Positions 49,793 to 64,000 of a stretch of DNA of 64,000 nucleotides are shown in pieces (position 1 is the stretch's first letter; every line of letters starts with the position of its first letter). Below the pieces are notes generated by a model. It saw only the letters and a program-made list of their open reading frames with translations. It was not told the origin of the DNA and did not search any database. This DNA comes from an uncultured Verrucomicrobiota bacterium. GTDB taxonomy: Bacteria > Verrucomicrobiota > Verrucomicrobiia > Verrucomicrobiales > Verrucomicrobiaceae. The translations under genes and the position numbers were made by a program. Where the stretch lies: the NCBI GenBank assembly GCA_903838675.1, contig CAILZI010000126.1, forward strand, positions 62,001 to 126,000, given 5' to 3'.

Positions 49793-50530
49793 TTAGAATC
49801 CAGGCCGGTAGGTGCGCGCCTTGCCAGTAAATGGGTCGATCTGAATGGTATAAAAATTGGGGGGCAGATTTTTTGCTGTGATGGCGCTGCCAGCATCACT
49901 GGCCAGTGTGACGTGACACAGGGTGATATCTTGAGCGAATGGAATAGTCGTGAGCCCAGAACTTGAAATGGTTCCAGCAACCCGATAAGAGCCGTCTGGC
50001 ATAAAACGAATCGCATTGTAGGTGGCCCCAGACACGCCTGAATAACCAGGAGTGGACCCATTTTTCGTATCCTGCTGCGAATTCCCGTTTAGCAGCGGCG
50101 ACAGATCAGAATCTGCGACGAGTGTGATGCTGTCCGGCAGGCGACTCAAAGTGCCCATGGGGATAAATGTTTCTGTCAAAGTGGAACCCGAAGTCAGCGC
50201 AGCAGTCGTCACTTTGAACATCTGGTATGCGCGAAAATCCTGTCTGGCACCAGGCAGGTCGATGTCGGTGTTGAATTTAAAAAAGCGAATTTCAACCGGT
50301 GAATTTTGAGTGAACGCAAACTGCTGGGCTTGTGAAATAGCCCCCAATAGAGCGTCACCAGCACCCGATAATTTGCTGGACTGCAATGTTCTCATCAGTG
50401 CGGGGGTCGCAACGGCCATGATCATTACAATAATCGCAACGACGACCAACATTTCGATGAGGCTGAATGCAGCCTTCCAGCCCAGACGATTCGGCAAATA
50501 ATTTCTCATGGGACAGAGATTTAATTTCAT
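49793..50530 (-). CDS. Verru_Chthon cassette protein D: GspH-like pseudopilin
   Basis: 245 aa from the ATG at 50530; the ATG at 50509 is an alternative. The prepilin leader cleaves within [26 protein letters not shown] gives Phe+1 and Glu+5, while the -1 residue is Ala rather than Gly. The remainder is a beta-rich GspH/FimT-like head ([34 protein letters not shown]). It matches the cassette D family of Verrucomicrobium/Chthoniobacter (TIGR02596, recalled). Last gene of the A-B-C-D series; GspH-like proteins belong to the pseudopilus tip. Confidence 0.88.
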
Positions 50531-50562
50531 AGCACGTGGTCAAATTCAGTCGCGCGTGGCGT

Positions 50563-51750
50563 CTACAGACTCCACCTGGATTGTTTGAGAGGAATCATGG
50601 TGGTGAAAACACGATAATTCAGTTTTTTACTAAGGAGCATTTTTTCCAACTGCCCAGGCGTGCCATCTGGATTATGCAGATCTGCGGCCAGACTGGAGGC
50701 CTGCTGAAACAAGCCTCCACAAAGGTTCACAATGGCCTGCTGAGTTGCTGAATCACTCGCGAGTTTTTCTCCGGAAACTTGATCCAAGGCCACCATGGTG
50801 ACCTGGATCAATGGGGGAAGAAGATGCTGTGTTCCCTGGCTGCCTGCCTGCACCGACGCAGCCCCGGGATTGGAAGTCTTGGTGGAATCGTAGATGTAAT
50901 TTGGGGCAATGCTGGTTGCCACAATCCCTGTCGAACCAGGGGGGACTTCGATCTGGGGGGAAATGATGAGGAGGAGAATATTTTCCGCTATGGGCCGGGT
51001 AAAAGCACGTGAAGCCGAGGTTTCCGAAGTCTGGATAGTGCCCAGCACGGCCTCTTGAAACCACTTTTTCGAATTTGAAGTAACGGGTTTCATATTGGAA
51101 CTGTAAATCTGATTCATTTCCGCGGTCGGGCTGTATTCCATGAGGCGAAAACGAGAACGCGTTGGAACAAGGGTGTTTGAAGCGAGGAATTTGGGGCGGA
51201 AACTGGTGTCGTCCCCCCACTTCACAAAGTAACCACGACCGCACAAAAGACTGGTCATGTTTTCGGTGTTTGCCATGGATTGAGATTCCGTTGTTGCGAG
51301 CAAATTTGTGACTCCGAGGGGGGCTTGAAAGAAAATCCCATGACCGGGATAATTTGACGCGCCACCAGGCAGTGATGTGAACAGGGGGTCAGAACCGGTG
51401 CCGGTAGGACCGCAGACGAACTGCAGATCAGAATTACGCAGATAATTCGTCGCCGGGGCGATGATCTGACCAGCATTGCTCGTAACCGGCGTATCCCAGT
51501 AAGCATTGAGCACGGCCTGACCTATGTTGCGAGACAGAACGTCCATGGCCATGCGCGCCTCACGAAATTGTGAGACACGGGAATTGGCTCTGACCCAAGT
51601 GCGCTGGACCAGTCCGAGGACCTGGGTAATCACCAGCATCAAAATGACCAAAAAGGTCACAGAGACGAGCAATTCGATCAAAGTAAAGGCGCGCCCGACG
51701 CAGCGATTGCTTCCTTTCGAACCTGATTGTTTCAAAGTTGCAGCTCTCAT
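50563..51750 (-). CDS. Verru_Chthon cassette protein C: GspJ-like pseudopilin
   Basis: 395 aa from the ATG at 51750; a longer frame from 51777 would overlap the previous gene. The prepilin segment is VGRAFTLIELLVSVTFLVIL, with Ala before the cleaved Phe and Glu+5. It resembles GspJ/PilW minor pseudopilins, including the early ANSRVSQFREARMAMDVLSR helix. Matches the cassette C family (TIGR02599, recalled). The large C-terminal part is cassette-specific. Confidence 0.88.
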   Translation of the reverse strand: MRAATLKQSGSKGSNRCVGRAFTLIELLVSVTFLVILMLVITQVLGLVQRTWVRANSRVSQFREARMAMDVLSRNIGQAVLNAYWDTPVTSNAGQIIAPATNYLRNSDLQFVCGPTGTGSDPLFTSLPGGASNYPGHGIFFQAPLGVTNLLATTESQSMANTENMTSLLCGRGYFVKWGDDTSFRPKFLASNTLVPTRSRFRLMEYSPTAEMNQIYSSNMKPVTSNSKKWFQEAVLGTIQTSETSASRAFTRPIAENILLLIISPQIEVPPGSTGIVATSIAPNYIYDSTKTSNPGAASVQAGSQGTQHLLPPLIQVTMVALDQVSGEKLASDSATQQAIVNLCGGLFQQASSLAADLHNPDGTPGQLEKMLLSKKLNYRVFTTMIPLKQSRWSL

Positions 51751-51760
51751 AGTCTGAAAT

Positions 51761-52264
51761 TCAGCGGTTCTTGGCAAACAGATAACTAAAGGTGGTGTAA
51801 TTCGATCCGTTCATAGTCCCAGAACTCGACGATGAAGTGGTGGGGAACTGAAACGATGAACTGTTGGTCCTTGCAATTCTGATCAAGGCACGCTGCAGAT
51901 AAGTTTGCGTGCCAGTATCCTTGGGCAGGCTGGCGGGCCCCCGGTATTCGACTTCCACCAGATAGGTCATGTCTGCAGACCCCGAGGGCACCTGTGTGCC
52001 CTCTTCATTGAAGTAAAGCTGCTTCTTGGTCCCAAGCTGGGGAACGTTGCTGTTTTTGTCCCCCCAAAGCATGCCATCCAAGTTTTGCACCACCTGCTCA
52101 CGAATGTTGCTGTTGGAGAGACTGACCGAGGTTTTGCGGGACATTTCCAACCCCATCGGCAGCAGGCCAAGAAAGGTAATGATAGCCAAGGAAGCAATGG
52201 CCACCGCGAGGGTGATCTCAACCAGAGAAAACCCGTGAGGGATGTTCGTTCGAATGGTTTTCAT
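51761..52264 (-). CDS. Verru_Chthon cassette protein B: GspI/PilV-like pseudopilin
   Basis: 167 aa. Leader NIPHGFSLVEITLAVAIASL has the classic Gly|Phe cleavage site and Glu+5. Short beta-rich head (MTYLVEVEYRGPASLPKDTG) and a Ser-rich segment near the end. Matches the cassette B family (TIGR02598, recalled) and by position and leader GspI/PilV. Ten bases separate its stop from the ATG of C. Confidence 0.88.
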   Translation of the reverse strand: MKTIRTNIPHGFSLVEITLAVAIASLAIITFLGLLPMGLEMSRKTSVSLSNSNIREQVVQNLDGMLWGDKNSNVPQLGTKKQLYFNEEGTQVPSGSADMTYLVEVEYRGPASLPKDTGTQTYLQRALIRIARTNSSSFQFPTTSSSSSGTMNGSNYTTFSYLFAKNR

Positions 52265-52286
52265 AAAAGAAAGATCAATGGATCAC

Positions 52287-55200
52287 TCACGGATTGAAGC
52301 GCTTGCTTTCGAGCGCCCTGAAGCGGTAGAAACTTTCCAGTGGCGCCAGCCCAAGCGGATTGCCACTGGCGGCATAATCAGGAATAGCCGTGGTCGCGTC
52401 CTTCGGATCCAATGGATTCGCTCTGGCGTTCGGATCAATGTAGCGCTCAATCAACGCTGACCCGCGGTATTCGCTCAACACAGCATCTTTGACGGTATCA
52501 AAGGTCGTTGGAACCGTGGAACGGGCTTTTTTGATCACCTGGGAGCGGACATGCACGCGGAAGGTGTTGCTGCGTGTGGTGATGCGATTGTAAAGATTTG
52601 AGTAGGGGCGTTCACGCACGTTGTCACCGGTGATGGTATGATTTTGCCAGAATTGATCCATGGCATTCTGGCGGCTGCCAGCGGTCAAGCCCGTCAACTG
52701 AACGCTGGTTTCGCCCTGGGAGATCCAATTGCCGTTGTTGGTATCTGGAATCAGATGCATTTCACAAATCTGGCTGGCAGAACGGAACAAGCCGCGAATC
52801 TGAGTGACGTTATGATTGGCGCCCTGAGCCGTGCCATTGAACTTTTCATCAAACTGAACGAGGGTTTCCTTCACATTGATGGGGCGGTGCCAGTACTGAC
52901 CGTCATTTTGCTCATCATAAAAGTTGATGTTTGTGGGGCCGTTCCCTGCCCGAGTGTTGAAATTTTTTGATTTATATACCGAGATGTTGGGAATGGCGGT
53001 GATGTATTCGCCCTTCATCAAGGCATGCAGCGCCGTGGCGCGCCGGATGTTGGTGAACGGCATGATTTGGAAGTTGAGATTGATCCTTCCAGCCATCGAA
53101 AGAGGTTCGCTGATCGCGTAAGGCTCAACGACAGGCATGCAGAACATGTCCAACAGGTAGTGATCTCTCGGATTGTTATCCCCCGGGTGCCCTGTAGCCA
53201 CGGATACTCCACCTCCAGTATTGGATAGTGTGTAAGGCCTGAACAGGAGAGTCTGCCAAGGCTGGCCAGGAATTCCCGTGGACGGCGCTTTAGAAGCCGA
53301 TCCGCCCTGCCAGACCCCGGTAGGCAGGGATCCAAACATGACAGGAGAAGAAATCATGCGGTTGGGGGACATATAGACGCCACTGCGCCAGTCATCCGTG
53401 CTGTTCCACGCGTCAAAAAAGTAACCTGAGCGGTAGTTCTTGACCGCACTGCCGAAGGTGTATTTGCCGATGTAGAAATTGCCTTCATCCGGCTTGTTCA
53501 CATAAGGTCCGCAACGAGCTCCGGCGATGCCAGTGTCAAAATCTCCATAGCGGTTGGCGTCGTTCGCTGCCGCAGTGCTAGGCGGCATATCCGGCGTCCA
53601 TTTGAGGTCGGACAAGGCATTGGAGCCAAAGGTGACGCCACGGACCATCTGCAAATCCTGGCCCAAAACCGGGAACTGATTTGGCGGCAGTTTGCAGCCA
53701 GTTTCATTGCCTGCATAACAATCCGTCCATGAGTGAATCAGCTTGACGTCACTGGGCGATCCTGTCCACAGAGGATGCTTCTGCCACATGTTGGTAGGGA
53801 CACTGGCCAAGGCCGCAACGAGGCGGTAATCCCCGCCGGCAGGAATCATGGTTCGTGTCACATCACTGCCCTGCCATGTGCTGGTGATCGTTTCATTGGG
53901 GATGAGGCCCGGACCATGCCAGGTACCAGCAACTCCCTGATTCATGAACTGTCCATTGGCCGTGATACCCTGAGTTGAAGTGTCCAGCCGCCCACGACAG
54001 GTCTGCCCGATTGCATCAACGGAAGTGATTGGAGTTAAAGCGCCAATCGAAAACGGCTGGGTCCCCCCAGTTTTGTAAGCTGGATTCACCGACCAGCCAT
54101 TGAGTTTGCGAATGCAGCCAGCTTGATTGAAGCACCACCAATGGGGTGCCTGACAGGAACGATACCAATTCAGGCGGCCGTAACTGTCCGTCGTGGAATA
54201 ATACCCCACCTGATGAGCGAGAGCTGGAGGCGGTTGGACACCGTTGGCAGCCACACTGTCATTATAAACCAGGGCCGGAACGGGGAGGGTTGTATCTGGG
54301 ATGGAGACATTGATGACTTGTACCGGCTGCAGCGACCTGCCGGTATAATCGTGCTTGTCATAGATTCGAATGACCAATTGCTTGCCGCCAAAAGAGAGTT
54401 GCAGCGGCTGATTACGATTAACGGTGACGAAGTTGCTGTTCAGACCATAATTGGTATTACCAGCGTGATTCGTGGTGGTGCCTCCATTCCAGGCTGGATC
54501 ACTCGGCGTCATCACTTTTCCGTTGATGGCAGACCCGCTGATGGGACGTCCGCCACTGCCCCCTGTCACGGACGGCGGTCCGGCATGCCCACCAAAGGGA
54601 AGCGTCCCACCCGAATTGTACTGGAAGACATTGCCATTCGACTTCAACACCACATCCTGATTGGTATCGAACAATTTAACGGGTCCATTAACTCCCTGCA
54701 GAGTCATGGCCCCAATAAAATCGCCCTGGAGCACGATCGTATATTCCGGATACATTTTAGTCCAGCCCAGCATGGGGCAGAAAGCTTCCAGCATCAGCAT
54801 GACCTGAACGCGTTTTTCGGTAGGCTGCAGAGGCGTGTCGGATTCCAGTGACAAATTCCAGTTTAGGGGGTCATACCCTGGGTGATTGTATGGGTGCCAT
54901 TTGTTTGTCGTCGCTATTGTACTGGCATCCACTTGGTACTGCAGCTTTGAAGCACCCAGAAGCAGAGGCGGAAAATTGGAGTACCAGCGGGCCTGGGCAT
55001 TGGGATCAAGCATCTTGGATACGATGAAAGGATGCGAAGTGCCATAACATTGGAGATTGGTATAAATCGGCAAAGCGCCAGTATTGCCGCCGGCATCAAT
55101 CGTCGGATCATAACGCGGCGCGGTACCGCCTCCGGAGGGAATTCCCGTTTTGCCCATCACTCCATTGGGATCCTGGAAGCCATCCGCGGTGCAGATGACA

Positions 55201-57350
55201 TTGAAACCGATTTCCGAGATGGTCAGAAACCTGCCAAAACCGCGATAATTATTCCCTGCATTGCTCCAGACGATCGGAGTCACGGTGCCATGTCCGGGCA
55301 GCACCCCCGAATCTGCGGAGGTGTATTGGTTGGTGGCACTGTCATAGGTGCTCGAGGTGCTGTTAACATTGGTGGCAGGCGGGGTGATGTTTTGGTTGGT
55401 GAAGGTGTATAAAGAGGAACCCGGAGTATCCAGGGTGTCAGCGACTGTATAAAGGCTGGCGCCTGAGCTGTTTAAGACTCCTGAGAGGCCAACCCCCTGC
55501 ATGCCATTATTTTTGCGTGCAAGAATGCCGTCGTACAGATTGGTGCAGCGAATGTAGTCAAAGAACTGCACCGCAAGCTGGTTCACATTGTTTGATCCAT
55601 ACTTGGTGCTGTAATTGCGTGAACTGCCAATGCCTGATGTCTGCGGCCAGGTCAGATTTGTCATTTGCGTCACGAGATAGTTGAGCAGGAAATTGTTACG
55701 CTTCAAACCCTGCGAGCCTTTGAGGTCATAGGTCTGGCTATGCGCCTCGTACCGACGGAAGATATAACTGTTGGCGATACTGGCCCCGGCAGACGTACCG
55801 CGCAGCGTCGCACACAGGGCGATGGCTTGATCAAAACTGGTGCGGCATTGTGTGCCCAAAGTTTCATCCGGGAGGGGCCAGACGGCAACGCGCGGGAGTC
55901 CATACATGGTGAACTCAGGAGCCCGGCTTTGAGCGGTCAGGAAAAAGCGGGCGTGCTCCAGAGAATCATGGCTGTAAAGCTTACGACCACCATTCAGGTT
56001 CGGATTGTAGGTTGGCTGGCGTCCCACCCCGGTTTGTGCGGCACCCGTTGCAGAACCAGTAAAGGCCGCATCCTGAAACAGCATCTCATCGACGCTGGCA
56101 AACAACCGCTCCGATTTCACGGTGGAAATATTGATGTATTGCGATAACTGCGATCCCATTTCGGAGTAAGGATTGGAATAGTCGTCTGTGCCGAAGGTCA
56201 GGGTTCCGGATTGTGAACCACCCGAAGTGATCTTGGGGGCGATGTTATAAATATAATTTTTATATGCCAGGACATCACTGACGCTGCTCAGACCTGAATC
56301 GAGGCTGGGATTGAGGGGATCCAGCCGCATACCAGGTGCCAGCACTGAACTGAGAGCGACGGTGGCAGGATGACCAGGATAACGCTGATACTCGCCAATG
56401 AGCGGAGGACAGTTGGCCCAGAAGTAGTCACGCTTGTGATAATAGAAGGGAGAATTGAAGAAAGTAGGCTCTGAAGCGGTGTTGATGTTCACTTTGCAGC
56501 ATTCGTCATCCGTCCAAAAGGCGACACGACCTACGATAGGATTGTCAGCCGAAGGTTGCACGCCTGCATAGTTCGAAATCCAGTTGAGCGAGCTGTCCAG
56601 CGTGCCCGTGGTGCCATCCTGCAGAACGTAAATCCACTCCACGGGCATGGGCAGTCTCAAATCATTTGGAGCACTGACGGTCGAAGGCGGCCGCACTTCC
56701 GTGTAGGTGACCGTTGAACCACTGCTGCCTGCCGGCGTTGTAGCGCTGTAGGTGAACCCTTCCACCTGTGTGGTGGCAGTCCCCGTGGAAGGGGATTGGG
56801 AGCCTAAATAATTCCAGGCGGCACGCGGATCAATGATGGGGAAAAAAACATCCGTTCCAGTACTGGAGGCGCTGGGGGAATTGGGAAGGGAGGGACGAAC
56901 AACAGGCTCATTCAAATCCACATAACGCGCCTTGTTATTTGGGTTCGACGACCAGTCAGTGGGAACCACTTCGGCGGCAAGCGCGGCTGATTCCGACTGC
57001 CCGGTCACTTTCATCTGCGTACTGGAATATAATTTGTAGGCGGCGTTGAACGAGCCGTCGGCGTTGTAGACCCGGACCATGCCGGGTTGAGTGGCATGAA
57101 AGGTTCTGGGCTGGGTCTGATCTGTGTACTGTCCGTTTTGGATCTGTGCTTCGACAATCGAAGTGGCGGTGTCCGCCAAGTCCTTGGCGCTCCGTGCGTT
57201 CAAATAGGACTGAGTTGATTTGTATTCCGTCTGGGTGGTGGTGAAAATGGCCACCATCAGAATCGCCATCAAGGCCAGTGCACTGATCACCATCACCAGC
57301 GCCATACCCTGACGGCTCGTTTTGAATGAATGAGGAATTAACTTTTTCAT
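52287..57350 (-). CDS. Verru_Chthon cassette protein A: giant GspK/PilX-like pseudopilin
   Basis: 1687 aa. The N-terminus SRQGMALVMVISALALMAIL looks like the GspK/PilX leader: cleavage after Gly, and no Glu at +5, a typical GspK trait. The rest is very large, rich in Asn, Thr, Gly, Pro and Tyr, with no recognised enzymatic motif; it is presumably a secreted pilus-tip or surface module. Matches the cassette A family (TIGR02600, recalled). It is first of the four cassette genes and follows a sigma70-like promoter at 57387-57415, downstream of the autotransporter-repeat gene. Confidence 0.88.
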   Translation of the reverse strand: MKKLIPHSFKTSRQGMALVMVISALALMAILMVAIFTTTQTEYKSTQSYLNARSAKDLADTATSIVEAQIQNGQYTDQTQPRTFHATQPGMVRVYNADGSFNAAYKLYSSTQMKVTGQSESAALAAEVVPTDWSSNPNNKARYVDLNEPVVRPSLPNSPSASSTGTDVFFPIIDPRAAWNYLGSQSPSTGTATTQVEGFTYSATTPAGSSGSTVTYTEVRPPSTVSAPNDLRLPMPVEWIYVLQDGTTGTLDSSLNWISNYAGVQPSADNPIVGRVAFWTDDECCKVNINTASEPTFFNSPFYYHKRDYFWANCPPLIGEYQRYPGHPATVALSSVLAPGMRLDPLNPSLDSGLSSVSDVLAYKNYIYNIAPKITSGGSQSGTLTFGTDDYSNPYSEMGSQLSQYINISTVKSERLFASVDEMLFQDAAFTGSATGAAQTGVGRQPTYNPNLNGGRKLYSHDSLEHARFFLTAQSRAPEFTMYGLPRVAVWPLPDETLGTQCRTSFDQAIALCATLRGTSAGASIANSYIFRRYEAHSQTYDLKGSQGLKRNNFLLNYLVTQMTNLTWPQTSGIGSSRNYSTKYGSNNVNQLAVQFFDYIRCTNLYDGILARKNNGMQGVGLSGVLNSSGASLYTVADTLDTPGSSLYTFTNQNITPPATNVNSTSSTYDSATNQYTSADSGVLPGHGTVTPIVWSNAGNNYRGFGRFLTISEIGFNVICTADGFQDPNGVMGKTGIPSGGGTAPRYDPTIDAGGNTGALPIYTNLQCYGTSHPFIVSKMLDPNAQARWYSNFPPLLLGASKLQYQVDASTIATTNKWHPYNHPGYDPLNWNLSLESDTPLQPTEKRVQVMLMLEAFCPMLGWTKMYPEYTIVLQGDFIGAMTLQGVNGPVKLFDTNQDVVLKSNGNVFQYNSGGTLPFGGHAGPPSVTGGSGGRPISGSAINGKVMTPSDPAWNGGTTTNHAGNTNYGLNSNFVTVNRNQPLQLSFGGKQLVIRIYDKHDYTGRSLQPVQVINVSIPDTTLPVPALVYNDSVAANGVQPPPALAHQVGYYSTTDSYGRLNWYRSCQAPHWWCFNQAGCIRKLNGWSVNPAYKTGGTQPFSIGALTPITSVDAIGQTCRGRLDTSTQGITANGQFMNQGVAGTWHGPGLIPNETITSTWQGSDVTRTMIPAGGDYRLVAALASVPTNMWQKHPLWTGSPSDVKLIHSWTDCYAGNETGCKLPPNQFPVLGQDLQMVRGVTFGSNALSDLKWTPDMPPSTAAANDANRYGDFDTGIAGARCGPYVNKPDEGNFYIGKYTFGSAVKNYRSGYFFDAWNSTDDWRSGVYMSPNRMISSPVMFGSLPTGVWQGGSASKAPSTGIPGQPWQTLLFRPYTLSNTGGGVSVATGHPGDNNPRDHYLLDMFCMPVVEPYAISEPLSMAGRINLNFQIMPFTNIRRATALHALMKGEYITAIPNISVYKSKNFNTRAGNGPTNINFYDEQNDGQYWHRPINVKETLVQFDEKFNGTAQGANHNVTQIRGLFRSASQICEMHLIPDTNNGNWISQGETSVQLTGLTAGSRQNAMDQFWQNHTITGDNVRERPYSNLYNRITTRSNTFRVHVRSQVIKKARSTVPTTFDTVKDAVLSEYRGSALIERYIDPNARANPLDPKDATTAIPDYAASGNPLGLAPLESFYRFRALESKRFNP

Positions 57351-57386
57351 GACGTGGATCCGGTTGGAATTAATTTAATTTGATCG

Positions 57387-57415
57387 ATCATATGATTTTG
57401 CCCTTATTCTGGCAA
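57387..57415 (-). promoter_or_regulatory. Sigma70-type promoter for the A-B-C-D cassette
   Basis: On the minus strand TTGCCA (57415-57410) and TATGAT (57392-57387) are separated by exactly 17 bases. Transcription would start near 57380, giving a leader of about 30 bases to the ATG at 57350. Two overlapping 10-bp palindromes cover the -10 box (TGATCGATCA 57381-57390 and ATCATATGAT 57387-57396), and a 6-bp inverted repeat TCATGT/ACATGA (57423-57438) lies just upstream of the -35; they may be regulator sites. Confidence 0.6.
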
Positions 57416-57438
57416 GTATTTATCATGTAATGACATGA

Positions 57439-57626
57439 AACCCTGTGAGGTGTTCCCTTGGAGAGTTCCTCACTTTTGGGCCTGACCTAACTTAACCCAG
57501 CCGAGCAACGATGCTGGATTTGCTGTTTACCGCCCCCCCCCAGCGGCAGCCTGGAAGTGCTCACCGTGGGAGATAAGTTCATGCTATCGAGTGTGACTAT
57601 GGTGCGATTGAAAAAAAATCAAACGG
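57439..57626. other. Noncoding gap before the autotransporter-repeat stop
   Basis: No gene or strong terminator is seen. It contains a run of nine C (57533-57541) and a short A-tract flanked by TTGA/TCAA (57608-57622), which is too weak to be called a terminator. The A-B-C-D cassette promoter lies to its left. Confidence 0.5.
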
Positions 57627-60600
57627 TTACCGCACGTAGCGCCGGCGCCTTCTGAGGCCAAGGCCCAGGAGGCCGAGCAGGAGCAAGGTGAGCCGGGCGG
57701 GCTCTGGAACAGCCACCGTAATCGTGCCAGCCGTGTAGAGGTTTGCCAGATTCCAATACAGACCTGAAGTCAAGGTCGGCAGGTCGGTGAAATCCGTGGA
57801 GTAGGTGCCCACGGCATACGTCAGATTTGTGAAGGTTCCGGTGGGGACGAGGCCACCCCAGTCGATGAGCTTGAAGGTGTCACCCACATGGAAAGTTGTC
57901 GTCGGCAGAGTGGTGTTAAGATTTACATTGGTGACCACGAGGCTGGCAGCGGTGAGGCTCGGGGAAAAAATCTGATTGAAGCTGCTGTCGTAGGTGATGT
58001 TTGGGGTGATGTAGGCGCCATTTGTGCCCTTGGCCGCCCCAGTAAGATCTACTTTGGCACCGGCTGCACCGATGATGATCAGGCTGTCGACGGCCGAGGA
58101 TGGATTTACGCCGTGACTGTCAGAGTACAGATTCAAGCTAAGCGTGCCAGCTATGGCCAAGGTGCTGCCGCTCTGCAGACTGATGGTCAGAGGCGAGGTG
58201 CTGGCGGTCGCGCCAGGGGTACCTGCAATTAACGTGGCTCCGGAATTGATCGCGACATTGTGGGTGGCGTCCACCGCAATCGTGCCCGTTCCGGCTAATA
58301 CTGCTCCGGATGCTACAGCTACATCACCATGACCTGTGCCAGAGCCCGTGGTGTTGTTCACCAGCAGTGTGCCTGAATTGACATTGGTGCCGCCATAGTA
58401 GGTGTTGGCCCCGCTGAGAGTGGTGACGCCCGTACCGACGGTCGCCACCGTGAGCTGATCGGAGGTGGCTGAAGAACCACCCTGCACTTCCGAAATAACC
58501 CCCGTAAAGGCCATGCCCTTACCGGTGGTGGCGGAGGAGTTCAAAATCAGCGTGTATGTTTCCTGCACTCCCGGGAGAAGATTTTGCATGGTCACATTGC
58601 CACTGAAGGTCACGGGAGTGGTGGAGGAATTGATGGTGGCAGAGCCGAAGTAGGTATTGGTAACGCCATTAGTGGAGAAACGGTCGGCATAGAGGTCGAT
58701 GTTCTGCGTGACGGCGGAGACCCCTGAAGCGAGCGTCAGGGTGACGGAAGGAGAGCTGGAGTCCTTCAGCCAATACACGGGATCCGTTCCGGTTCCATTG
58801 ACCGTCCCGACCGAGTGAGCCCCCATGAAATAGGTGCTGCCATCACTTGTCACATTGACCTGGGTTCCATAGAGCATGTTGGCAGCTGTGCTGAAGTCTG
58901 AGGTGCGGACCAGGTTGATGGTGCCGTCTGCATTGACCTGGGCGAGCTGGTAAATGCCGTTGCGTTCCGGATTGTTGAGCTCGTCTTTCACCAGGATGCG
59001 GGTGCTCAGGCCTGTGTAGGTCAGGGTGACAGGGGTGGTTCCATCCGCCACGGTGGCCTGGGAGATGCTGAACTGGTTCGGGCCCAGGATCGCGGTGATC
59101 ACTGTTCCCGCAGCGATGCCAGCACCACTGATCTGCGTACCCACAAAGAGAGTGGTGGTGCTGCCCGATGCGAGCGTGATGATCGTGGTGCCAGAGCCGA
59201 ACGTGGAGCTCAAAGTGGTGCTTTGGGTGAAGGCATAAGCGGCAATGTTGGTCCCACCGATGACAGCGTTCACATTGTAGAAAGCTCCAGCTCCAGAAAG
59301 AGCGCTGCCAGTGCCATCGACCGTGCCGTTTCCAGTGGCCAGGAAGACGCCGCCCAAAGCATTGCTATGGTCGGCAATGAAGGAATAGGAATTTTCCACA
59401 CCGAGGATGGACGCCCCGGTGGTGGCAAAATCAACATTGGCGGAGAGCTGATAGGTGGCGTCTCCCAGCTGGAGAGTGCTGCCGGAGAGCGCGGTGTTGC
59501 TGTTTAAGACCAATGTGCCATTGCGAACAATGGTGGCAGCCTGACCGCTGCCACTGACACCGGAAAGAGAGCCATAGTTGTTTGTGGCGTTGGCCAGTGT
59601 CATGGTCCCCCCTCCATTCAGAGTGAAACCGCCAGAGCCTGTGATCTGTCCGTTGAAAGCCACAGTGCCAGGCAGGTCAATAATGACGTTGCTGGAAGCC
59701 AGGCGATTGAGCGACACGGTCGATGATACGGTGTTCAAAACGTATGTGGCATCAAACACCGAGATACCCGTGCTGTTGGCTCCGCCAAAGATCAGTGCAT
59801 TGCTGAAAGTATCCCCAAGGAAGTTCAGGATCAGTTCTTCTTGAGCATAGGGAGTGTCCGTCGTCGTGCCGACGCTGACGGCTCCTGTTCCAAAGGAGCC
59901 GTTGCCGAAGCCGATCAAGGTGCCTTCGGCCAACACGGTTCCTCCGCTATAGGTGTTGGTCGGGGCGGAAAGCTCAAGCACGCCATATCCAGCCTTGATC
60001 AGGGAACCGCCGGCCCCCTGAAGCGTGCCGCTCAAGATGGCATCCACTGCGGTTGCGGACTTACCACTGGTGACATTGACCATGCGGGATTTGACCCCCA
60101 GATCGATGGCGTTGACAAACGTCACGGTTTTGTCTGCGTCCTGGGCACCAAGCATCAGAGTGTCATTGTCGAGCACAAAGCCTCCTGAGCCCCAGGCCAC
60201 GAGAGCGCCGCTGCCCCCCAGATTGACGTTACGATTGGCCCCGTAGGCGGCAAAGCCACCGCTGCTGTTCCAGTCCACCTGGGTGGCACCCGTTCCGAGA
60301 CTGCGGGTGAAATCGCCTGAAATCGAGGTGAGGCCAAGAATACCGCCATCCAGCCGCACATGGCTGAAGATGGGGAGTGCACCGCTGGAATCCAAGCGCA
60401 GAACACCGCCTTCGATAAAAGTGGTGCCCGTGTAAGTGTTGGCACCCGAAATCGAGGTGGTTCCGTTGCCAGTCTGAACCAGATTCACGGCACTTGAGGC
60501 AGCGGTGTTGTTTGCGATGACCGAACTGATGGAGAAAGCGGCAGCAGGATCCCAGTTGTGAATAATCAAATCTGACGTTCCCAGATAGACGAGACTGTTC

Positions 60601-63600
60601 GTGCCGGTGGCATTGGCAGCGGTGGAAAGCACGAAATGAGTGGCATCCGTGATGCTGGCCACGGTGGTGCCGGCGATGATACCTGTGCCTGAAACCTGCT
60701 CACCCACACTGATGTTGGCGGTGGAAACGACGGTGACGGTGGTGCTGCCCGAAGCCGTGGTGGATCTCAAGCCTGAGTTGAAGTCGGTGTTGGTCAGGCC
60801 GCTGGTGAGTGTGCCACCTGTAATGGAATTGATGTGGTTGCCAGCATGGGTGGTTTGCAGGATGGCGCCTTGGTTGATCGTCAAGGTGCTGCCAATCGTG
60901 ACGGTGCTTGCTCCGGGAGCGGCTCCGACAAAGCTGCTGTTGTAAAAACGGATCGTGTTCACCGTGGCGCCAGTGACGGTGGTTCCCGCAAAAGCGTCAG
61001 AGCTGAGCGCACCATCCATGACGTTCATGGCACTGGTCCAGGTGGCGGGGTTGCCCTGAATGGTGTGTGCGGCCACGCCGCCATAATCAGAGCCCTGCAC
61101 ATTGTAGGAAGTGCCGTTGGACTTGAGGGTCACATCAATAAACGCAAAGTAGTTCACGCCTGGATGCAGGGCCTGATCGTCTGAGATGGTCCAGGTGGCA
61201 CGTGGCAGGATGACCTGAGCATCGATGCCAAACAAACCTGAAAGCGTGATGTTAGCGCTGCCAGAACCGTTGTCATTTTTCACGAACAACAGCGTGCTGC
61301 CAGCATTCCAGGTGGCCGACTGCGGATTGTTCACGTCCTGCAGGTTCAAAGTTGTGTCCACATTTAATGCAGTGGTCACGGTGATGACGGAGGCGCCTTG
61401 ATTGATCACAAAGTTCCCTGGCAGGTCCTGGATGGTTGCCCGTCCAGCGCTGCCAACAACCGTCAGATTGCCACCTCCAAGGGTCAAAGAGCCGACATCA
61501 TTGCGCACAAACTGGTCGGTGAGGTAGGATTCCAAGCGCAAGGTACCATCATTCACAGTCAGGTTGGTCACCCCATAGCTGCTCGAGTTCGGTGTGAGGT
61601 AACCGAGCAGATCCAGCACGCCTGCGCCAGTCTTGACGATGCTGTAGTTATCCTGCGCAGTCGGAGTGGTGATGTTGCCTCCCAACTTGAGTGTGGTGTA
61701 GGCATTCCCGACATCGAACTGGGCGCCCACGCCGGAGTTGATGGTAAAGCCCCGGTCCGTGGAGGTGCTCAAACCATTGAACTGCAGTGTACCGCCGTTG
61801 AAGACAAGATTGGAGGCCCCATTAAGGGAAGCTCCAAGTCCGCTGGCTGCGCCGGCATACGAGAGATTGAAGGAACCTGTGTTCAGCGCGAGCTGTGAAA
61901 GTCCGATATGCGTGGAGTCCAGAATGCTGACGATGGTTGTACCCGGCGGAATCCCCAGGCCGGTGACCGCCTGACCGACACGCAACCCTACTGTGGTAGG
62001 TACGGTCACGGACGAGCTGCCACTATTAGTGGAGGAAGCCATCAAGGTATTACTCAGCGGTGCCGCGAATGCCAAGGTGTTGGAGGCCGTGGTAGTGGCT
62101 GCGATCGATATGAGGATATGGGTGGCATCCACAATGCTCGTGATGGTGGCTCCTGAGGGAATCCCGGTGCCGGTGATTTGCTCACCGACAGCGAGGCCTA
62201 CGGTGGAAGAAACTATCACAGTGGTGCTGCCGCTGGTGGTGGAGGAAACCAGAGAGGGGGCGCTTGCCCCGAAGGTCAGGTTGTTTTGTCCAGTCAATGT
62301 GACCACGACATTGAGCAGCACGGTGTTCAGGTCGGTAATGCTGGCGATCACAGCACCGGCAGGTATGCCATTGCCACTGACCGACTGGCCGATTGTCAGG
62401 CCGAGGGTGCTAGGAACAGTGACCATGCTGCCAACCTGCGTTGTGGCATTCACACTGCCTGCAACCAGACTTGCCGTACCATAGGTCAGAGCGATGCTAC
62501 CGACGGTCGAATTGGCAGGCTGATTCAGAGTGAAATGGGTGGCGTCAACGATCGTCAGAATCGTATCCCCAGCTGGAATGGTGCCATCCGAACTGGAGAC
62601 GGTCTGGCCCGGGGTCAGACCGGCTGTCGTGGCCCCGCCCAACAGGGTCACGGTGCTGCTGGCAGCGGTGGTGCTGCTAGCCCCGGGGGCTACAACGGAA
62701 GTGGAAGGAAGGATAAAGGTCAACGGGCTGTTGGTCACTGCAACAACCGCCCCGTTCGACATGGTGAACTGATTCGCGTTGTTGATGGCGGTGATGAAGG
62801 AACCCCCGTAGTTGAGGCTGACGCCGGAGCCATTGGCCGTGGCACTCGCGCTGAGCAGCACGGTGTTGCCATTGATACCTGAAATCGTGGTGCCAGCTGC
62901 GATACCAGCACCGGATACCGGCATGCCAACTGCCAGCCCGGTGGTGCTTGTCACTGCCACCGAATTGGAGCCCGAACTGGTCGTGGATGAAACGGTGGAA
63001 ACGCTGGGCAGACCGGTGCCCGTCACGATTTCACCATAGGTGAGACCTGTGGTGGTGCCTGGCACTGTCACCACATTGCCAAGGGACTGGTTGACGGCCG
63101 TCAACACGGTGGCCACGCTGCCGACAATGGAGAGACTGTTCACAGTCACCACCCCAGAATTGAGAGTGTTGACACCTGTGTAGGTGTTCTGGCCGGCCAA
63201 AATGAGATTGCCCACACCGCTCTTGTCCACCCCGTTGGTACCGCCTGTGCCGTTTGCAATCACGGCGGAAATATCCAGCACACCACTGCCAGTGTTGCTT
63301 TGCAGAATCAAGAGATCCGCACCAGCGCCGGCACCGTTGACCAAGATGCCGGTGCCATCCGTGCCGATGATAGCTGAATTAGACCCCATGTTGTTGGTGA
63401 AGAGAATGCCGCCAGTCTGAATCGTATTCGTTCCACTCAACGTGACATTGTAGGTAGTGTTGGTCTTGGCAGGGGTGTTGTTAAACCGCAAGGTGTTGGC
63501 CGTCTCATTGGTCTGAGTGCTGTTGCCCACAATGTCCATGTTGGCGTTGGTGACCCAGTCATTGGTGGTCGCAGCAGGAAGGAAGGCACCGCTGCTGGTG

Positions 63601-64000
63601 TAATTGGTCAGGCCGGAGATCAGCGAGTTCGTACTGCCAGTGACGTCACGGGCGACGAAACTCAGAGTGCTTGTGGCAGTCGATGTGGCGTTCGCTGAGA
63701 GGGTCACCGTCGTGCCGTTAATGCTCGCCACGGTGGTTCCTGCCGTGATACCGGTGCCTGAAACTAATTCCCCTGCAACCAATGTAGCAGCCAAAGCCGA
63801 ACTCACCGTTAACGTAGGGCTGCCGCTGGTGGTGGATATGGAGGCAGTTTGTGTCGTGGTGGCCCAGGAGATGCCGCCCACCGTGGCCCAGCCGCCGAGG
63901 ATGCCGTTGGTAAGAGCGGAGCTCGTGCTGGCAATGTTGTTGGTGCTGAAATCGACCATGCCGCCTGCCGAGCGTGTGATGGTGTTCATGCGCAGAATGG
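57627..64000 (-). CDS. Giant autotransporter-associated beta-strand-repeat protein with PEP-CTERM tail (5' end off window)
   Basis: More than 2120 aa. The frame is open through the right edge (codons Ile-Leu-Arg precede the internal Met at 63989), so the N-terminus lies beyond the window. Passenger repeats of the PF12951/TIGR02601 type recur: LILAGQNTYTGVNTLNSGVV, ISGANTYTGTTFIEGGVLRL, LSAPTNTYSGGTVLAEGTL and LSGANTYYGGTNVNSGTLLV. Between these are about nine copies of a 55-65-aa module. The C-terminus is VPEPARLTLLLLGLLGLGLR followed by an Arg-rich end, the PEP-CTERM sorting signal; no outer-membrane barrel is present. It is expected to be a long beta-helical surface protein. Composition is strongly Thr/Ser/Gly/Asn, unlike its neighbours. 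Confidence 0.9.
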   Translation of the reverse strand, partial: ILRMNTITRSAGGMVDFSTNNIASTSSALTNGILGGWATVGGISWATTTQTASISTTSGSPTLTVSSALAATLVAGELVSGTGITAGTTVASINGTTVTLSANATSTATSTLSFVARDVTGSTNSLISGLTNYTSSGAFLPAATTNDWVTNANMDIVGNSTQTNETANTLRFNNTPAKTNTTYNVTLSGTNTIQTGGILFTNNMGSNSAIIGTDGTGILVNGAGAGADLLILQSNTGSGVLDISAVIANGTGGTNGVDKSGVGNLILAGQNTYTGVNTLNSGVVTVNSLSIVGSVATVLTAVNQSLGNVVTVPGTTTGLTYGEIVTGTGLPSVSTVSSTTSSGSNSVAVTSTTGLAVGMPVSGAGIAAGTTISGINGNTVLLSASATANGSGVSLNYGGSFITAINNANQFTMSNGAVVAVTNSPLTFILPSTSVVAPGASSTTAASSTVTLLGGATTAGLTPGQTVSSSDGTIPAGDTILTIVDATHFTLNQPANSTVGSIALTYGTASLVAGSVNATTQVGSMVTVPSTLGLTIGQSVSGNGIPAGAVIASITDLNTVLLNVVVTLTGQNNLTFGASAPSLVSSTTSGSTTVIVSSTVGLAVGEQITGTGIPSGATITSIVDATHILISIAATTTASNTLAFAAPLSNTLMASSTNSGSSSVTVPTTVGLRVGQAVTGLGIPPGTTIVSILDSTHIGLSQLALNTGSFNLSYAGAASGLGASLNGASNLVFNGGTLQFNGLSTSTDRGFTINSGVGAQFDVGNAYTTLKLGGNITTPTAQDNYSIVKTGAGVLDLLGYLTPNSSSYGVTNLTVNDGTLRLESYLTDQFVRNDVGSLTLGGGNLTVVGSAGRATIQDLPGNFVINQGASVITVTTALNVDTTLNLQDVNNPQSATWNAGSTLLFVKNDNGSGSANITLSGLFGIDAQVILPRATWTISDDQALHPGVNYFAFIDVTLKSNGTSYNVQGSDYGGVAAHTIQGNPATWTSAMNVMDGALSSDAFAGTTVTGATVNTIRFYNSSFVGAAPGASTVTIGSTLTINQGAILQTTHAGNHINSITGGTLTSGLTNTDFNSGLRSTTASGSTTVTVVSTANISVGEQVSGTGIIAGTTVASITDATHFVLSTAANATGTNSLVYLGTSDLIIHNWDPAAAFSISSVIANNTAASSAVNLVQTGNGTTSISGANTYTGTTFIEGGVLRLDSSGALPIFSHVRLDGGILGLTSISGDFTRSLGTGATQVDWNSSGGFAAYGANRNVNLGGSGALVAWGSGGFVLDNDTLMLGAQDADKTVTFVNAIDLGVKSRMVNVTSGKSATAVDAILSGTLQGAGGSLIKAGYGVLELSAPTNTYSGGTVLAEGTLIGFGNGSFGTGAVSVGTTTDTPYAQEELILNFLGDTFSNALIFGGANSTGISVFDATYVLNTVSSTVSLNRLASSNVIIDLPGTVAFNGQITGSGGFTLNGGGTMTLANATNNYGSLSGVSGSGQAATIVRNGTLVLNSNTALSGSTLQLGDATYQLSANVDFATTGASILGVENSYSFIADHSNALGGVFLATGNGTVDGTGSALSGAGAFYNVNAVIGGTNIAAYAFTQSTTLSSTFGSGTTIITLASGSTTTLFVGTQISGAGIAAGTVITAILGPNQFSISQATVADGTTPVTLTYTGLSTRILVKDELNNPERNGIYQLAQVNADGTINLVRTSDFSTAANMLYGTQVNVTSDGSTYFMGAHSVGTVNGTGTDPVYWLKDSSSPSVTLTLASGVSAVTQNIDLYADRFSTNGVTNTYFGSATINSSTTPVTFSGNVTMQNLLPGVQETYTLILNSSATTGKGMAFTGVISEVQGGSSATSDQLTVATVGTGVTTLSGANTYYGGTNVNSGTLLVNNTTGSGTGHGDVAVASGAVLAGTGTIAVDATHNVAINSGATLIAGTPGATASTSPLTISLQSGSTLAIAGTLSLNLYSDSHGVNPSSAVDSLIIIGAAGAKVDLTGAAKGTNGAYITPNITYDSSFNQIFSPSLTAASLVVTNVNLNTTLPTTTFHVGDTFKLIDWGGLVPTGTFTNLTYAVGTYSTDFTDLPTLTSGLYWNLANLYTAGTITVAVPEPARLTLLLLGLLGLGLRRRRRYVR
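59005..63860 (-). repeat. About nine copies of a 55-65-aa Gly/Thr module in the giant protein
   Basis: Consensus core: STVGLxVGxxVxGTGIPAGT followed by TxASIxDATHxxLS. Approximate copies: 63650-63850, 63001-63060 (partial), 62800-62990, 62490-62690, 62270-62460, 62065-62255, 61855-62040, 60580-60770 and 59005-59215. Six are nearly contiguous between 61855 and 63060; the last two stand apart among the beta-strand repeats. The copies diverge at DNA level, so this is an old protein repeat, not a recent array. Confidence 0.75.

Follow-up and report, generated by a model that had tools for sequence, protein, structure and literature searches.

We have identified a four-gene cassette, A-B-C-D, in 64,000 nucleotides of DNA (hereafter the window) from an uncultured Verrucomicrobiaceae bacterium (assembly GCA_903838675.1; positions 62,001 to 126,000 of contig CAILZI010000126.1, here C126). 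On balance, we favor the view that the cassette encodes a pseudopilus tip module of the kind formed by GspH-I-J-K or FimU-PilV-PilW-PilX, with D as H, B as I, C as J and A as K, and that this module acts on a client encoded by the neighboring gene. The tip module is probably dedicated to that client. Gene content, prepilin leaders, profile affinities, gene order, a core machine encoded elsewhere, the decoupling of copy numbers and the adjacency of the client were observed here; formation of the complex, the tip position of A, its binding to the client and the release or display of the client are inferred.

Cargo recognition by the type II secretion system (T2SS) has long been an open question, for which the minor pseudopilin tip is a prime suspect. 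The minor pseudopilins H, I, J and K prime and cap the filament, with GspK or PilX, which lack the glutamate at position 5 (Glu5), located at the tip (PMC7541494, PMC10191384). GspK has been proposed to contact T2SS substrates (PMC10191384).

Results

The cassette encodes four prepilin-like proteins

The cassette consists of four co-directional open reading frames (ORFs) on the minus strand of the window, running from 57350 to 49793 in the order A-B-C-D. A profile search against NCBIfam confirmed that each product belongs to a Verru_Chthon cassette family, with scores above the curated cut-offs: A matched TIGR02600 (1073.9 bits, cut-off 332.3), B matched TIGR02598 (77.6 bits, cut-off 51.4), C matched TIGR02599 (348.1 bits, cut-off 256.5) and D matched TIGR02596 (115.3 bits, cut-off 70). 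An initial annotation, made from the sequence alone, had held that these families are named without an established function; no published function turned up, our literature search returned no paper naming the Verru_Chthon cassette or its family accessions, and the family entries state none.

The products have the hallmarks of type IV pilin-like precursors, namely a short basic leader, Gly or Ala at position -1, Phe or Met at +1, Glu at +5 except in the K/X type, and a hydrophobic helix. D additionally matched the N_methyl profile above cut-off in the genome search. The Gly/Met cleavage site without Glu5 that had been described for A (RQG/MALVM) and the Gly/Phe site with Glu5 described for B (HG/FSLVE) proved typical of their families, as Glu5 was found in 0 of 37 scored A leaders and in 25 of 25 B leaders. 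The leaders of C and D in the window have Phe at +1 and Glu at +5, but Ala rather than Gly at -1, a feature shared by 17 of 33 C and 16 of 30 D family members.

Across the families, the GspH profile was matched by 31 of 31 D members (best E 4.6e-15) and the GspJ profile by 26 of 33 C members, with HpsC matched by 25 of 33. B members matched XpsI (15 of 26), PilV (14 of 26) and GspI (11 of 26). These affinities agree with the earlier suggestion that D, C and B would be GspH-like, GspJ-like and GspI/PilV-like, respectively. C and D members also matched T4P (type IV pilus) and competence minor-pilin profiles. Of the window's own proteins, C scored 27.7 bits against GspJ across its first 66 amino acids (equivalog cut-off 64.85) and D scored 26.1 bits against GspH (equivalog cut-off 80), while GspI (equivalog cut-off 44.35 bits) was absent from the NCBIfam matches of B. 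Because none of the four reaches the curated Gsp equivalog cut-offs, we refer to them as H-I-J-K-like and not as members. Gene order was found to be D-B-C-A in 12 mapped paralogous cassettes (e.g., L122, L123, L127, L149-L153 and L164), which is exactly the gspH-I-J-K operon order of the Escherichia coli T2SS. A sequence-profile search of the PDB matched C and D to pilins across the leader and returned nothing for A or for B. WD40 matches of D in the PDB search were discounted as sums of twelve weak repeats around a common PDG motif.

A is a very large GspK-like protein

The assignment of A as GspK-like is supported by its leader, which is closest to that of GspK, by the absence of Glu5 and by its position, last in the H-I-J-K order. 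Its sole other NCBIfam match was GspK itself (NF037980; 28.3 bits over residues 14-93, cut-off 130). Canonical GspK genes, of which there are three in the source genome and two to three per genome in the family, are ORFs of 312-443 amino acids with a T2SSK_1st domain, so that A, at 1687 amino acids, is indeed the enlarged K-like member that the initial annotation had taken it to be. Matches to the T2SSK_1st profile (PF21687) were confined to ORFs of approximately 310-600 amino acids at other loci. Across the family A ranges from 899 to 1745 amino acids, with a strongly variable middle part, a conserved C-terminal third and a conserved DDEscKvNiNTA motif at residues 281-292. The KVNINTA portion of this motif resembles the NLN motif of GspK. 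We regard the resemblance as a lead and not a result, because hhalign aligned A with canonical GspK of the same genomes at 90% probability across the leader helix and elsewhere gave weak suboptimal matches (E 0.01 or worse; a simple ORF criterion was used to pick the GspK set, in which some rows, though few, may be wrong frames). Of the full K-I-J-H set claimed initially, the profile affinities of B, C and D, the leader of A and the gene order have stood, with the similarity between A and GspK restricted to the leader.

Looking past the Verrucomicrobiaceae, 208 of the 388 Verrucomicrobiota genomes encode proteins with an A-like N-terminus, mostly of about 700-1700 amino acids (e.g., L160-L179 in G179, G320 and G157), with up to approximately 15 matches per genome, and giant K-like pseudopilins thus seem to form a far wider family. 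A Prosthecobacter-type A gene also occurs on a contig labeled Akkermansia muciniphila (L059; metagenome-assembled genome MiH-14oct19-163), where mislabeling or misbinning of the contig is probable.

A megadalton protein is encoded directly upstream of A

A giant ORF of approximately 40 kb, on the same strand and directly upstream of A, occupies window positions 57627-63989 and continues beyond the window (C126:119627-159736). It is a single ORF of 13,369 codons, giving 13,348 amino acids from the likely ATG, and its 1.305-MDa product has 16.5% Thr, 14% Gly and zero cysteine. The product matched TIGR02601 (PATR; Pfam name Passenger-associated-transport-repeat) at 53.5 bits and TIGR02595 (PEP-CTERM) at 23.0 bits, both above cut-off. 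In addition to PATR repeats, it has every feature expected of a PEP-CTERM/exosortase substrate: a Sec-type signal peptide (judged by eye), a C-terminal PEP motif, transmembrane helix and basic tail, and an exosortase in the genome. Exosortase-family genes were found in 7 of 7 Verrucomicrobiaceae genomes. Other PATR ORFs of the source genome encode 14,657 (C102), 9,961 and 5,979 amino acids, on contigs without a detected prepilin leader. At least 31 copies of a GxGIxxGTxIxxI-type motif occur in the giant besides its PATR repeats (L026, L097 and L098).

In order to count such neighbors, we scored co-directional PATR or PEP-CTERM ORFs of at least 450 amino acids within 800 bases of 67 non-identical cassettes, using as controls 249 ORFs from the same 20-kb loci, a conservative comparison that is locus-level rather than genome-wide. 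An adjacent giant was present at 36 of 67 cassettes versus 11 of 249 control genes (Fisher p 1.8e-19), at 23 of 49 cassettes upon exclusion of the window and its close orthologues (p 4e-13), and at 14 of 23 cassettes within one genome (p 2.5e-11), where it must be borne in mind that paralogous cassettes are partly non-independent. In all 12 close orthologues for which upstream sequence is available, a giant-type ORF occupies the equivalent position. Giants adjoin the cassette immediately and in the same direction, in many cases with an overlap or a spacing of 20-40 bases. At the second cassette of the source genome (C11), a PATR/PEP-CTERM ORF of 2205 codons overlaps A by a stop/start ATGA (TTATGAAAA), and the two may be translationally coupled. 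At L107 (5463-11684, minus strand), a PATR/PEP-CTERM protein is in frame with A, giving 2074 amino acids in which the PEP-CTERM tail is followed by the prepilin leader of A. This fusion, which may instead reflect loss of a stop codon with A retaining a start of its own inside the frame, was scored as negative in the automatic count. GH5 enzymes adjoin orthologous B-C-A-D cassettes, as a PATR-plus-GH5 protein at L104 and as a plain GH5 cellulase at L108; cellulase is a cargo type familiar from the T2SS. Homologous flanking genes are retained in four reciprocal-best cassette pairs between genera.

A strict one-client-one-cassette arrangement was rejected, since some giants have no cassette and some cassettes no giant; therefore, one tip may serve several clients or none of them. 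The client-specific tip proposed in the initial annotation, which had not seen the giant, has gained a neighboring giant at about half of the cassettes. The many giants without a cassette and the other half of the cassettes tell against it, and the specificity itself is what we infer.

A separate cassette clade (L147 and L148) adjoins 1207-amino-acid signal-peptide proteins with He_PIG repeats, the C-terminal end of which resembles, by eye, that of the PATR giants beside L130, L132 and L136.

The core machinery is encoded elsewhere and does not scale with the cassettes

The cassette had been described as free of secretion motor genes and as plugging into a core machine encoded elsewhere, and both points hold. 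Among the window ORFs, no ATPase, platform or secretin gene was found in or beside the cassette, which is not a complete T2SS or T4P locus, and the closest T2SS ATPase on the contig is approximately 85 kb away. The source genome (265 contigs, 93% complete) has 14 T2SSE-family matches, approximately seven of them full-size GspE/PilB, as well as seven secretins above cut-off and one prepilin peptidase gene. T2SS-type GspD, GspE, GspF, GspI and GspK genes are located on C126 and C171. A core and a prepilin peptidase, on which the initial proposal had been made to depend, are accordingly both present.

The count of cassettes against cores that had been called for was made in seven Verrucomicrobiaceae genomes (the source genome, G200, G235, G188, G191, G066 and G218), which have 2, 2, 2, 4, 4, 12 and 21 copies of A above cut-off and 14, 11, 13, 12, 14, 10 and 14 T2SSE matches, respectively. 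With A copies ranging from 2 to 21 and motors from 10 to 14, cassettes therefore multiply without motors, as expected of exchangeable parts. The sole prepilin peptidase gene found (L099:6572-7834) has an insertion of approximately 100 amino acids that splits its Peptidase_A24 match in two.

Layout of the locus

The positions of the features are listed in Table 1. Intergenic distances are operon-like, at approximately 22 (A-B), 10 (B-C) and 32 (C-D) bases, and guaB, guaA and tmk-like ORFs follow downstream of the cassette in the same direction. An alternative ORF for C, starting at a TTG, extends to 51777 (404 amino acids). Because Met10 of this ORF is invariant across the family, the start of C was placed at the ATG at 51750, which is probably the one used.

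Table 1. Features of the cassette and its upstream neighbor in window coordinates (a slash in a leader marks the cleavage site)
Feature	Position	Strand	Remarks
D: GspH-like minor pseudopilin, Verru_Chthon cassette protein D	49793..50530	-	245 aa, leader KAA/FSLIEM
C: GspJ-like minor pseudopilin, Verru_Chthon cassette protein C	50563..51750	-	~395 aa, leader RA/FTLIEL
B: GspI/PilV-like minor pseudopilin, Verru_Chthon cassette protein B	51761..52264	-	167 aa, leader HG/FSLVE
A: very large GspK-like pseudopilin, Verru_Chthon cassette protein A	52287..57350	-	1687 aa, leader RQG/MALVM
Gap between giant gene and A	57351..57626	-	276 bases; one sigma-70-like match (57415-57387), no terminator-like site on minus strand
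3' end of giant gene, likely client	57627..64000	-	continues past window edge to ~C126:159736; PEP-CTERM tail VPEPARLTLLLLGLLGLGLRRRRR

Discussion

We propose that the four prepilins would be cut by the single prepilin peptidase of the genome and would then assemble in the inner membrane as a priming and tip complex, which a T2SS- or T4P-type core encoded elsewhere would push outwards. A, lacking Glu5 as GspK and PilX do, would sit at the very tip and use its large extracytoplasmic region to bind and carry, or else display, the protein encoded by the adjacent gene. In the window, this client would be the 13,348-amino-acid PATR protein of beta-strand repeats, which would reach the periplasm via its Sec signal peptide and offer its PEP-CTERM tail to exosortase. 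Cassettes would have been duplicated with differing clients while sharing few motors.

Several observations weigh against this proposal. A does not attain GspK membership, its NF037980 score being below cut-off and T2SSK_1st (PF21687) being unmatched, and its profile similarity to GspK stops after the first 60-90 residues and is significant for the leader helix alone. AlphaFold models of A residues 1-640 and 1166-1687 were uninformative (mean predicted local distance difference test scores, pLDDT, of 42 and 45; shallow alignments of 17-18 rows), and a fold search with the low-confidence model of 1166-1687 (pLDDT 45) gave no match at E<=0.001. By the automatic rule, 31 of the 67 cassettes lack a PATR/PEP-CTERM giant, and in the source genome the giants outnumber the cassettes, there being only two A genes. 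The 276 bases that separate the giant gene from A make a single transcript an assumption. Finally, a rod-like protein of 1.3 MDa would be an unusually large T2SS cargo.

We think it rather unlikely that the cassette is instead a type IVa pilus priming and tip set, in which A, as a chimera of GspK and an adhesin, would itself be the adhesin at the tip, and the giant would be a distinct surface protein that happens to be encoded at the same locus. The PilV matches of B and the T4P/competence minor-pilin matches of C and D would suit such a set, as would the size range and highly variable middle of A, the common occurrence of A cassettes without a giant and the several PilT-type ATPases of these genomes; moreover, HIJK sets of the T2SS and T4P are interchangeable for piliation (PMC10191384). 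However, giants adjoin paralogous cassettes far above chance, with a stop-start overlap and one fusion, the cellulase neighbor is a secretion-type cargo, and PilY1 (PF05567) had no match at E<=1 in A or in the 2120 amino acids of the giant that lie in the window.

Less probable again is a coincidental meeting, in variable regions, of two mobile or fast-duplicating surface-gene families, with the pseudopilins exporting some other enzyme or a polysaccharide in the manner suggested for HpsB-D of cyanobacteria. The cassettes without a giant and the absence of a cassette at most PATR giants are as this would predict, and the HpsC matches of C recall the hps pseudopilins, which pair with glycosyltransferases (PMC4284469). 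Against coincidence stand the immediate, co-directional placement of the giants, often closely spaced or overlapping, and the conserved flanks of the four inter-genus pairs, and among the neighbors checked in the window and its orthologues (guaB, guaA and tmk-like) no glycosyltransferase was noticed. That PATR giants are ordinary self-exporting autotransporters with no need of the cassette is very improbable: PATR repeats are chiefly familiar from the passengers of autotransporters, but the giant ends in PEP-CTERM, and its C-terminal 2120 amino acids matched PATR and PEP-CTERM alone, with no autotransporter beta-barrel (PF03797).

A broader and more tentative possibility is that the Verrucomicrobiaceae practice secretion with interchangeable tips, in which a few T2SS/T4P motors would serve from 2 to more than 20 H-I-J-K-type cassettes, the giant K-like subunit of each cassette being matched to the client encoded next to it. 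Such clients would include megadalton, cysteine-free PATR/PEP-CTERM proteins that a pseudopilus would carry through the outer membrane or display on its surface. Each part is of a familiar kind. What would be new is the size of the K-like subunit, together with the number of copies and the link to giant clients. A bacterial family in which as many as 21 tip sets share few motors, many of them next to differing very large or enzymatic cargo, amounts to a natural experiment on cargo recognition. The proposal further assigns a role that can be tested to four families that have names but for which our search found no published function, and suggests how PEP-CTERM giants of more than 1 MDa might be exported.

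Comparison with known systems

The cassette is like the T2SS GspH-I-J-K set (XcpU-V-W-X) in its leader types, the profile affinities of D, C and B, the leader of A without Glu5, and the D-B-C-A order of its paralogues. It differs in the size of A, which has no T2SSK_1st match at 899-1745 amino acids, and in lying apart from motor, secretin and platform genes. In Myxococcus xanthus, three minor-pilin/PilY1 clusters operate on one core (PMC7541494). Those clusters 1-3 are likewise alternative minor-pilin sets, each with a large partner, that rely on a shared core, whereas the partner here is a signal-peptide PATR/PEP-CTERM giant without a PilY1 domain, and the copy number reaches 21.

The cyanobacterial hps locus encodes pseudopilins together with glycosyltransferases and HpsA, a protein of unknown function (PMC4284469). 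As in HpsA-HpsB-C-D, the pseudopilins described here have no accompanying motor genes and adjoin a protein of unknown function, and C members match HpsC. Unlike the glycosyltransferase-rich hps locus, none was noticed at the cassette, and A had no HpsA match in NCBIfam. The giant resembles the PEP-CTERM/exosortase surface proteins of Verrucomicrobium spinosum (PMC1569441) in its PEP-CTERM tail and in the presence of exosortase genes, and the paper describing them names neither the cassette nor its families and draws no connection between PEP-CTERM proteins and these pseudopilins. The closest likeness in content is to the Verru_Chthon families A-D themselves, with the same four-gene cassette and all four proteins above cut-off, to which our analysis adds the link to a giant neighbor and the H-I-J-K order of the paralogues.

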